NCBI GenBank assembly: GCA_002841625.1
Contig: PHAG01000010.1
Coordinates: forward strand, 60,135 to 124,134
DNA from: Firmicutes bacterium HGW-Firmicutes-1
GTDB lineage: Bacteria > Bacillota > Clostridia > Lachnospirales > Vallitaleaceae
Length of the DNA stretch: 64,000 nucleotides
Reading direction: 5' to 3'
The position numbers were made by a program, and so were the translations under genes. Below the pieces are notes generated by a model that was not told the DNA's origin, did no database searches, and saw only the letters and a program-made list of their open reading frames with translations. This document shows positions 59,045 through 62,976 of this stretch, piece by piece (within the stretch, counting starts at the first letter, position 1; each line of letters starts with the position of its first letter).

Positions 59045-59785
59045 TTAGCCCTTTCGAGCTAGTGTTTCTCTAAGCCGATATGATTCGCCTTGCATATTTA
59101 CGATATGAGCCTTATGCGTAAGTCGATCTACCATAGCTCTAGTGATTACTGGATCACCAAATATCTCATCCCATCTGTCAAAAGCTAGGTTGGTTGTGAT
59201 AATAATAGATTTTCTTGAAGCTCTAAGTGACAGGTTGGTAAATAATAATCCGGATCCCTGTTTATCAAAAGAGATGTATCCGAGTTCGTCTGCAATTACA
59301 AGGTCATACTTTTCGAAGCGTCTCTCAAAGTATGTTAGCGTTTTTTGACTTTTACACTCTTTGAGTTGTGTTATGAGTAATGGTATTGTTGTATAAAGAA
59401 CTTTATATCCTTGGATACATGCTTTGATACCAAGCCCTATACTAATATGTGTTTTTCCCGTGCCAGGATTACCAGATAAGATAATATTCTGTCCCTTTTC
59501 TATAAAATCCAGTGTGTTAAATAAGGGCAACTTATCCTGAACACCTTCTGGTAAATAAGGAATCTCTAAGTCATCTAGATATTTCTTATACGGAAATTTT
59601 GCAATACGTATGCGACAGTCAACCGCTCGTTGATCTTTCATGTCGATTTCTTTTTCTAGTATCTTATGTAGGAAATCTTCATAATCCTTGGCATCATTCA
59701 TGGTATCTTCAAAGGTATCCTGTATGCCTTTAAGCTTTAAAATGCGGCAATATTCTTTGATTTCTTCATTCAGTTTTACGTTCAT
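59045..59785 (-). CDS. istB: IS21-family helper ATPase IstB
   Basis: ATPase of 246 residues that helps the IstA transposase select target DNA. Walker A is SGNPGTGKTHIS (about residues 105-114), Walker B LVIADELGYISF, and SIIITTNLAFDRW the sensor region. It overlaps the istA stop by TAATG sharing, the usual translational coupling. Length is normal, so istB is intact while its partner is broken. The C-terminal SYRLRETLARKG is also typical. Confidence 0.95.
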   Translation of the reverse strand: MNVKLNEEIKEYCRILKLKGIQDTFEDTMNDAKDYEDFLHKILEKEIDMKDQRAVDCRIRIAKFPYKKYLDDLEIPYLPEGVQDKLPLFNTLDFIEKGQNIILSGNPGTGKTHISIGLGIKACIQGYKVLYTTIPLLITQLKECKSQKTLTYFERRFEKYDLVIADELGYISFDKQGSGLLFTNLSLRASRKSIIITTNLAFDRWDEIFGDPVITRAMVDRLTHKAHIVNMQGESYRLRETLARKG

Positions 59786-60273
59786 TATACAGCCTCCTTA
59801 TGTTTAACGATTGTACTAATTCCACCTAATTGGTTGTACTGATATAATGTCTGCTTGGATTTTAAAGACAGTTCATCAGTATAGAAGCTTACATGACCAG
59901 CTTCCTGTTCTTTGGTATGATCACAGATGGAGCTAACTTTATCCGAGCTCATATCAAGAGGTGAAATTTGTTCCAACCGTTTTAAGGCTGCATCAACTGC
60001 ATCGACACCTTTTTCATAGATTATTTCTAAGACCTCTAGAAATATCTTGGCATCTTTGTTATAATAACATTCGTAGATGTTCTTAATCTTGGTGTCCGCT
60101 TGTAGCATTGCTGTGCTATTTGTTAGGACACCTGGTTTTTTATAGAGAGTTTTTAAGTAGTGCTTTAAATCTATTGTCCATGTGTGGAGTTTATAGCTTC
60201 TATCATGAGTAGCCATAATAGCTTTATCATGATATAAATGAATTTTGTTAGTATATATTTTTGCAAGAAGCAT
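59785..60273 (-). pseudogene. istA: Truncated IS21-family transposase IstA (C-terminal part)
   Basis: About 162 residues remain of a protein of about 500. Visible are YTNKIHLYHDKAIMATHDRS and TWTIDLKHYLKTLYKKPGVL, the conserved C-terminal beta and HYL/KPG segments of IstA. Homology appears to begin slightly upstream of the ATG (LVGQ before MLLAK), so this ATG is internal and not a real start. The DDE catalytic domain is missing. Junction with phage DNA lies near 60285-60295. Confidence 0.9.
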
Positions 60274-60292
60274 TTGTCCTACTAGATTAGAG

Positions 60293-60613
60293 GTGGTTGG
60301 CGTTGAAAGCGATGACTCAACGGAAGAAGATGAGTACGTTATTCAATTTGAGAAGCCGTTTATGTTTGAAGGTAATACATATGCAGAAATTGATTTATCA
60401 GGTATAGAAGAATTAACGACTTCGCAGTTAAAAACAGCTGAAAAAATCTATACTAAAAAAGGAAAGGTATCTGCTGCACCTGAAATGAGTACAGCATATG
60501 CTTGTATCGTTGCTCATATGGTTTCGAGCAGACCTATTGAATTTTTTGATAGACTACCAGCTAAAGAGGGTATGAAAATAAAAAACTTGTTAATCGGCTA
60601 TTTATACAACTAG
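60293..60613 (+). CDS. Phage tail assembly chaperone (0-frame product), 5' end uncertain
   Basis: About 107 residues of a Mu gp41/TAC_7-like tail assembly chaperone: EYVIQFEKPFMFEGNTYAEI and DLSGIEELTTSQLKTAEKIY. The chaperone coats the tape measure during tail assembly. The frame is open upstream to 60245, but that part is antisense to istA. The true start was probably lost at the IS junction or is GTG 60293. Just before its stop, the gene has A AAA AAC in register at 60580-60586, leading to a -1 frameshift product (next entry). The tape-measure gene follows, as expected. Confidence 0.75.
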   Translation: MVGVESDDSTEEDEYVIQFEKPFMFEGNTYAEIDLSGIEELTTSQLKTAEKIYTKKGKVSAAPEMSTAYACIVAHMVSSRPIEFFDRLPAKEGMKIKNLLIGYLYN

Positions 60614-60768
60614 GTTTAAGGCAAGGTGATGGAGAGATACTGCAAAAAGTAGCCATCAACCTTGCCTTAAATACTTTTACTAGCATTGAATTCTATCTGA
60701 ATCTTTCAATAGGAGAATTTGTAAGGGTAGCCGAAGAGATCAGTGAGGTGAGTAAAAAGCATGGCTAA
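60580..60768 (+). CDS. -1 frameshift extension of the tail chaperone (GT-type)
   Basis: After slippage on A AAA AAC (60580-60586, zero-frame codons ATA AAA AAC), the -1 frame stays open for 60 codons from CTT 60586 to the stop at 60766-60768. The encoded part contains LALNTFTSIEFYLNLSIGEF and VRVAEEISEVSKKHG and has no start of its own. It overlaps the tape-measure start by eight bases. This is the known G/GT arrangement of tailed phages. A stem-loop at 60615-60671 (TTTAAGGCAAGG.. with ..CCTTGCCTTAAA, one bulge) follows the slip site. Confidence 0.8.
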   Translation, partial: KKLVNRLFIQLGLRQGDGEILQKVAINLALNTFTSIEFYLNLSIGEFVRVAEEISEVSKKHG

Positions 60769-62976
60769 GAAAACAACATACGAAACCATTCTTGCCATTG
60801 GTGGTAAAGTTCAATCATCAATGGGAAAAGCTTTTTCTCAAGCTCAAAAAAACATTGCTGGACTTGAAAAACAAACGAAAGCAGCAAACGCAACGAATAA
60901 GGGATTTGCTGTTGGATTAAAAACTATTATCGGTGGAGCAATGACCTATAAAGCGTTTAGTTCTGCAAAGAGTTATTTGGATGAATCAGTTGAAGCTGCT
61001 AAGGTACAGATAGAAGTTGAGACAAAGCTAGCAACAGTATTAAAACAAAGAACTAATGCAACAGAAACTCAGATATAATCGATAATAAACTTAGCAAGTG
61101 CACAAGAGCAATTAGGTGTTATTGAAGGAGATGTACAGATTGCTGGAGCTCAGCAATTATCGACATTTGTAAACCAGACATCGTCAGTGGAAACTTTGAT
61201 TCCAGCAATGAATAATTTAATTGCACAGCAGAAAGGACTTTCTGCTACTACAGGTGATGCAGTTAATATTGGGAATTTAATGGGTAAAGTATTAAATGGA
61301 CAAACGGGGTCTCTGACAAGAGTTGGAATCTCGTTTTCTGCTGCTCAAGAGAAAGTACTTAAGTATGGTAATGAACAAGAAAGGCTGCTATGTTGGCACA
61401 AGTAATTAATGAAAATGTTGGTCAGATGAATAAAGCCCTTGCAGAAACTGATCAAGGTAAAATAAAACAAGCAAATAATGTGCTTGGTGAGATGCAAGAA
61501 ACTATTGGGAGAAAAATACTCCCCATACAAGCTAAATTTTATGGGTGGTTTGCTGGTAAAATACCTAAGATTCAAAACTTTATATCAGGCCTTATTGATA
61601 AGACCTCAAAAGGTATTAGCTTTATAAGTAATTCATTATCTAAGCTGAAACCATATGTAACTTCTGCAGTTACTAAATTTGGGCTTTTCAAACCAACAAT
61701 TGACAATATAATCCAGAAAATAATATGGTTTAAGGGTGTTGCAGTTGATTCTTTTAATAAGATAAAAGGGGTAATCACAGAGAATATTCCAATCTTAGCT
61801 AGTATTAAAGACAGGATTGTAGAGGTAGCAACTAATATTCAGGAAAAGCTTAACGGAGCATTTTCAACAGCGCAGCCTATAATAGAATGGATGTTTAGTA
61901 ATGCACTTCCTCAGGTCGTATCAGCGTTATTTTTAGTAGCTGATAAAGCAACACTCGTCTATGATGTTATTGTTAATAACTGGGCAGTCATTGAACCAAT
62001 AGTTTACGGTATAATTGGCGCATTTGTGGCTTTTAAAGTGATTACTGGAATCATGACAGCCTATTCTATTATTATGGGGATAGCATCTGGCGTTACTACA
62101 GCATTTGGAGCAGCAGTTGCTTTCGTAACTTCTCCAATTGGGGTTGTTGTAATAGCAATTGGTGCATTGATTGCGATAGGTATGCTCCTTTATAAGAATT
62201 GGGACAAAGTTAAAGCATTTATGATAAGGATTGTAACAGGTATCAAAGATGGAATTGTAAATGCCTTTAATAACGTGGTTGCATTCTTTAAAGAATGGGG
62301 TCCAAAAGTTCTTATTGCTCTTACAGGACCATTTGGAATTGCAGTTTCATTAATAGTTCAAAACTGGGATACAATAAAGGTCTTTTTTAGTAATGTATGG
62401 ATAGCGATTCAGGAGATATTTGCAAATGTAGGAACATGGTTTTCAGAAAAGTTTACAGCTGCAGTTGAAGGAATAAAAACTGTATTTTCAGGAATCGGAG
62501 AATTCTTTGGTGGTATTTTTGATACAGTTATAGGAACATTTAAAGGCAATATTAATATGATTATTGGTCTTATTAACTTTATGATTGATAAGATCAATGG
62601 AATTAGTATTGAGGTACCAGAATGGGTGCCAGAAATAGGTGGAAAGACAATCGGGTTAAGTATTTCTAATATACCACAGCTTGCAAATGGTGCGTATGTT
62701 AAGCATACACCAGGAGGAGTTCTTGCAAATATTGGTGAGGGTAATCATGACGAAGCAGTTATTCCACTCGGCAGCAGGCTTGAAAAAATATTTGGCAAGT
62801 TAGTAGGCAATAAAACATCAAACGAGAGCGTGTCTTTTACTTATTCACCTAAAATCATTATTCAAGGTAATGCTGATGAAAGTGTAGTTAGAAAAGCAAT
62901 AGAAGATGATCAAAGGGCTTTTGAAAAAAGAATGAACACATGGTTATCAAACAACAAAAGATTGAAATTTTCATAA
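60761..62976 (+). pseudogene. Phage tail tape-measure protein, broken by nonsense and frameshift
   Basis: The reading frame would be about 738 residues, setting tail length. Three pieces remain. Piece 1 (60761-61078) starts TYETILAIGGKVQSSMGKAF and ends at TAA 61076-61078. Piece 2 continues in the same frame to 61405 (NLASAQEQLGVIEGDVQIAG), so the TAA is a nonsense change, for example CAA to TAA. Piece 3 (from about 61388 to 62976) lies in another frame; one base is missing near 61383 (GAAAGGCTGCT, expected AGGGCTGCT). Piece 3 has long hydrophobic helices (about 62010-62190) and ends with the typical GGVLANIGEGNHDEAVIPLG. No tape measure can be made. Confidence 0.9.

Follow-up and report, generated by a model that had tools for sequence, protein, structure and literature searches.

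A probable G/GT-type frameshift cassette in a Firmicutes prophage with a displaced slip site and a selected, non-canonical hairpin

A prophage remnant in the genome of Firmicutes bacterium HGW-Firmicutes-1 carries a tail assembly chaperone gene with the heptamer A AAA AAC close to its end, a start-less -1 frame running from there into the start of the tape-measure gene, and a long stem-loop within that frame. Does this arrangement specify a programmed -1 frameshift, and what is the role of a stem-loop located so far from the slip site? The locus was pointed out in an earlier note on a stretch of 64,000 nucleotides (contig PHAG01000010.1, positions 60,135 to 124,134; hereafter the window, to which all coordinates refer unless another contig is named). 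Our main reading, to which we assign a probability of about 0.7, is that the locus represents a cassette for programmed -1 frameshifting of the G/GT type from a contractile-tail prophage, whose slip site has moved and whose hairpin has been selected for a non-canonical role.

The chaperone, its two frames and the second copy

The slippery heptamer A AAA AAC is found at 60580-60586 on the plus strand and lies exactly in the zero frame (ATA AAA AAC TTG), as the earlier note had read it. The zero frame terminates at TAG (60611-60613, plus strand), a stop read from both the sequence and the homologs. The -1 frame extension (60586-60768, plus strand) is open for 60 codons up to TAA at 60766-60768, aligns with the T domains of the homologs, and overlaps at its end the tape-measure ATG at 60761. 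The same note had described this frame as start-less and ending in the tape-measure start, and we found it to contain neither ATG nor TTG and a single GTG six codons ahead of its stop.

The fused product matched the tail assembly chaperone profile phrog_3140 with an E value of 6e-25 (profile positions 121-271 of 274), while the match of the zero-frame part alone was weaker (E 3e-22). Phage_TAC_7 (PF10109) scored 13.2 bits, under the curated cut-off of 25, and a PF10109 search of the genome itself yielded no match at E <= 0.001. When joined at the slip site, the zero-frame and -1 parts align with the homologs as a single continuous protein. Altogether, the programmed -1 frameshift proposed earlier for the tail chaperone is supported at the sequence level by the phrog_3140 match and by the conservation, in dozens of homologs, of the slip motif, of a -1 frame with no start and of the T domain.

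The chaperone gene in the window (60289-60613, plus strand; the G-like product, phrog_3140 E 2.9e-22) is a 5'-truncated remnant. DNA homology to a second copy in the same genome starts near 60289, and the truncated gene is adjoined by an IS21-like remnant (59045-60273) with istB on the minus strand (PF01695, E 7e-64) and a 162-aa minus-strand ORF bearing a weak transposase match (phrog_1157, E 3e-4). The start of the tape-measure gene (60761-61078, plus strand) is broken as well: a stop interrupts the gene at 61076-61078, and its frame breaks near 61390. With the chaperone cut at its 5' end by the IS21 remnant and the tape gene disrupted, we regard the window copy as vestigial, and its cassette is probably non-functional.

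The second copy (L002) resides on another contig, C2, at approximately 219,951-220,483, is 85% identical over the cassette, and keeps the heptamer, the TAG and the core of the stem. The surrounding region (C2, approximately 218,507-222,018) retains the gene order sheath, tube, chaperone and tape, and its tape gene is open for at least 513 codons, being unbroken over the first 513. The chaperone directly precedes the tape-measure gene in L002, as it does the broken tape gene in the window. Near-identical relatives of the C2 copy were detected in the IMG/VR contig 3300038336_000066 (L014) and the MAG contig PGXM01000015.1 (L025). The less damaged C2 copy is likely the working cassette of this genome.

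Displacement of the slip site within the family

A profile search gave 80 homologous loci from IMG/VR, and a class search added more from genomes. The 82 loci possessing both a slip site and a -1 frame were reduced to 66 non-redundant ones, in most of which the -1 frame ends overlapping the tape start. A standard-type slip site (T TTT TTN, G GGT TTT, A AAT TTT or similar) was found in 62 of the 66, and A AAA AAC, placed on a conserved KN codon pair, in four. The latter heptamer stands at the homologous place in L002, L014, L025, L005, L015, L028, L039 and L145. The standard sites lie 9-15 nt beyond the conserved KN codon pair and 15-18 nt downstream of the A-type position. The A-type loci no longer have the standard site, and they share the position of the zero-frame stop, 31 nt from where the heptamer begins. 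In the window, the place of the standard site (T TTT TTN; 60598-60604, plus strand) is degraded to C TAT TTA, the sequence there being GGC TAT TTA. A AAA AAC is far commoner in the loci lacking a standard site (Fisher P 7e-4, from a hand-counted 2 x 2 table of related loci).

These comparisons show that the window clade lost the standard slip site and has A AAA AAC 18 nt upstream in its stead; the slip site thus moved, with the stem staying put. L145, which carries both slip sites, is possibly an intermediate in this relocation. In the tree, the A-type loci fall in a poorly resolved region together with the loci of hairpin class I (see below), and both a single origin and several origins of the A-type site are possible. 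An SD-like element, AAAGAGGG (60563-60570, plus strand), lies 9 nt upstream of the heptamer with an anti-SD duplex of -6.3 kcal/mol, and is a possible upstream stimulator of slippage. We considered this element as the cause of the relocation and rejected the idea: loci that slip elsewhere have an equally strong one at the corresponding position (P 0.94), and it is thus not specially selected.

Several loci depart from the common pattern. L082 has a T-like domain in the +1 frame near the zero-frame stop (TGC TTT CTG TAA), suggesting a +1 or -2 shift. L074, L078, L080 and L110 possess no X XXY YYZ heptamer and carry a shorter T run in the slip region (TTT CTG, GTT TTC) with a hairpin close behind. 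In L006/L008 and L016 we noted a single open frame with two chaperone-domain matches (G060, 245 aa) and, in Faecalibacterium phage Toutatis, a long fused product with two domain-like halves.

A selected hairpin in the T segment

In the 66 loci, the 132 nt after the slip site were compared with synonymous recodings of the -1 frame, giving a mean z of -3.02 with 36 loci below -3 (the loci are related, so that shuffle numbers are not strict probabilities), against -0.53 for the zero frame upstream and -0.27 for the start of the tape gene. A structure profile over +/-1200 nt displayed one peak, located at +25 to +100 after the slip site, with a mean z of -1.31 at +50 versus -0.19 +/- 0.13. Judged from sequence data, the T-segment hairpin is an RNA element selected at the nucleotide level.

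The hairpins were sorted by their place into class I (near +22), class III (near +48) and class II (near +72); class III occupies the same protein position as class I but after a 27-nt insertion. Covariation in class II was strong and amounted to 0.399 versus 0.164 +/- 0.017, with slid controls reaching at most 0.158 and 87% of the cells paired. The signal was weaker in the two classes of nine sequences each, at 0.201 versus 0.160 in class I (11/500) and 0.323 versus 0.242 in class III (4/500). At the homologous protein site, the register of pairing differs among the window clade, class I, class III and L028, which suggests that the hairpin was re-invented repeatedly. Two further ideas were abandoned. 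The excess of G-U over A-C (69 to 16) cannot serve as proof of a sense-strand RNA, as the slid controls are biased too (0.51-0.79), and no clean pattern of mutual exclusion between proximal and distal hairpins emerged in a local-fold scan that missed some hairpins, e.g., that of L004.

The window stem pairs a 5' arm at 60615-60632 with a 3' arm at 60653-60671, both on the plus strand. The earlier note had described 17-18 pairs with one bulged T just past the zero-frame stop; the position and the pairing, here 18 pairs, hold, and the bulge is instead an A in the 3' arm (60658/60659). A conserved core of 14 pairs (60619-60632 with 60653-60667) is kept in all three close relatives. The stem folds at -30.7 kcal/mol versus -17.7 +/- 3.1 for dinucleotide shuffles, none of 200 being as low. 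Under synonymous recoding of the -1 frame, the z values were -6.1 for the window, -4.6 for L002 and -5.6 for L015, with none of 2000 recodings as stable in each case. No clear hairpin was seen in L005/L039 (L005 z -1.5). Variability in the arms of the window stem is only slightly below that of the rest (P 0.03-0.10). The homolog alignment proposed in that note as a check bears out the conservation of the slip motif and the -1 frame and, in class II, the covariation of the stem; the window, L002 and L015 have diverged too little to reveal compensatory change in the window's own stem. A search of Rfam over 60200-61000 returned no match with E up to 1.

Role of the hairpin and comparison with known systems

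The spacer between heptamer and stem is 28 nt, the gap that the earlier note had rightly singled out as unusually long, or effectively 32 nt when counted to the conserved core. Usual stimulator spacers are 5-9 nt (PMC7618472), and in the window no stimulatory structure of the bipartite -1 signal type lies 5-9 nt after the heptamer. In the window clade, the 28-nt gap is largely a consequence of the relocation of the slip site 18 nt upstream. In bacteria, the mRNA channel takes up 11 nt, counted from the first base of the P site, and A-site binding is inhibited by stem-loops placed 11-12 nt from the P-site codon (PMC7282821); counted in the same way, with AAA in the P site, the window stem begins only after 34-38 nt. 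Across the family, the hairpins lie mostly 20-75 nt past the slip site and do not follow it, and stop-proximal hairpins displayed no selection (mean z +0.29), so that the stop-proximal mini-hairpins of several relatives (e.g., L060 and L073) were rejected as a selected element. Thus, these hairpins are unlikely to be ordinary stimulators, and the earlier description of the stem simply as the stimulator does not stand against a family hairpin that stays fixed when the slip site moves. Canonical use of the hairpin is possible in some members of the family via outer stems, which begin 3-12 nt after the slip site in L024, L034, L035, L050, L058 and L076 of class I.

We propose that most ribosomes would translate the chaperone as far as the TAG at 60611. 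On a small fraction, probably no more than a few percent, tRNA-Lys and tRNA-Asn would shift their pairing on A AAA AAC back by one base, and the slipped ribosomes would read through the T-like domain to yield a long chaperone ending over the tape-measure start. Both the occurrence of slippage and its rate are inferred. Termination of the zero frame at 60611 would leave about 150 nt with few ribosomes before the tape start, and a hairpin in this ribosome-poor stretch may protect, process or attenuate the mRNA and thereby set the output of the tape-measure gene. We favor such control of tape-gene expression over indirect stimulation of frameshifting, as it fits best with the tolerance of the hairpin to distance, and put the likelihood of this role at just short of even. 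On a broader and somewhat more tentative view, the T-segment hairpin would exert its effect a long way from the slip site, would have arisen in differing registers and positions in different phage lineages, and would link or balance frameshifting with tape expression, slip sites and hairpins being able to move independently of each other.

The hairpin could instead stimulate frameshifting from a distance, through a pseudoknot with the spacer or another tertiary fold, a bound phage or host protein, or a queue in which a stalled leading ribosome makes those behind it pause on the heptamer. The restriction of the hairpins to the segment right after the slip sites and the extended stems 3-12 nt from the slip site in some relatives are in line with this possibility. 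So is a cardiovirus stem-loop 13-14 nt away that stimulates once protein 2A binds (PMC7618472). A possible pseudoknot arm, GGCUAUUU (60597-60604, plus strand), could pair weakly with AAGUAGCC (60647-60654), with 8 pairs in the window and L002 and 5 in L015. However, this pairing is absent in L005/L039, L028 and L145, the spacing varies from 20 to 75 nt and is not maintained when the slip site moves, and the hairpin is out of reach of a ribosome at the slip site. Stimulation from a distance, the main rival reading, is possible but, in our estimation, doubtful.

One form of expression control would be a transcription attenuator or RNA-processing site lowering the tape gene and later genes, which we consider unlikely. 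The location between a high-copy and a low-copy product, the T run after class II hairpins and the terminator-like call for L075 speak for it, but the scan that made that call found no more sites in L075 than chance would give (1 found, 0.8 expected), and a large part of the T run codes for a conserved residue. The terminator scan made no call at the window stem, which has no terminator-like T run, and the class I stems lack a T run as well.

Slippage of RNA polymerase on the A6 or T6 run in place of a ribosomal shift is very improbable: homopolymer runs do occur at the shift site, but they are just six bases long, and A AAA AAC and T TTT TTN retain the tandem-slip pattern and the codon phase. 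Finally, a plain A-run deletion in a decaying prophage, or a sequencing error, is scarcely credible and was rejected, for although the prophage has decayed (truncated chaperone, broken tape gene) and one added A would join the frames, the identical break occurs in the C2 copy and in homologs from IMG/VR, MAG sequences and other genera, the combination of slip site and -1 frame recurs throughout the family, and the zero-frame tail beyond the heptamer likewise aligns with homologs.

The frameshift itself is of the known G/GT kind, and frameshifting in tail chaperones is very common in tailed phages. What this large family adds is a hairpin under strong nucleotide-level selection within a segment translated only after frameshifting, beyond the working distance of the standard model. 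This leaves two possibilities: stimulation over long distances does occur in bacteria, or the cassettes impose an additional level of control on the tape-measure protein, the determinant of tail length. In the literature that we searched, in which few subscription papers were covered, selected hairpins far from the slip site were not described for tail-chaperone cassettes.

The cassette resembles cardiovirus 2A-dependent frameshifting in having a stem-loop too distant to act alone (PMC7618472), but the spacer there is 13-14 nt, the ribosome is eukaryotic and the protein factor is known, whereas no factor is known here. With the E. coli dnaX and IS3-type signals it shares a slip heptamer and a hairpin, along with an SD-like element, here 9 nt upstream and not specially selected; the stem lies 28-32 nt off here, while theirs is effective within a few bases. 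A AAA AAC is a proven natural bacterial -1 site with no established stimulator in the IS cluster A_AAA_AAC_1, where the product is a transposase and no distant selected hairpin was reported (PMC4066793). It is also a low-efficiency motif in E. coli (PMC4066793), which counts against the frameshift-cassette reading. In the E. coli survey, predicted hairpins were judged relevant in just one phage cluster (PMC4066793), and according to a review some tailed-phage frameshifts appear to lack stimulators (PMC5009743).

The closest counterparts are lambda G/GT and P2 E/E+E', which share the chaperone before the tape gene, a -1 slip near the 3' end and a start-less -1 frame overlapping the tape start. 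The slip site of P2 is T TTT TTG, the kind mostly used in the present family, whereas the window clade would slip on A AAA AAC, 18 nt ahead of the place where the family has T TTT TTN. The T segment here bears a strong, selected hairpin, whereas that of P2 is less well supported. In P2 (L130, 679-856), a hairpin CTGATGGCGG...CCGCCATCAG lies about 51 nt after T TTT TTG with a z of -2.6 against synonymous recoding (lambda, -2.0), and it is kept in several relatives and lost in L136 and L138. As a general case the P2 hairpin is only suggestive, and this laboratory phage may represent a weaker example of the distant hairpin.
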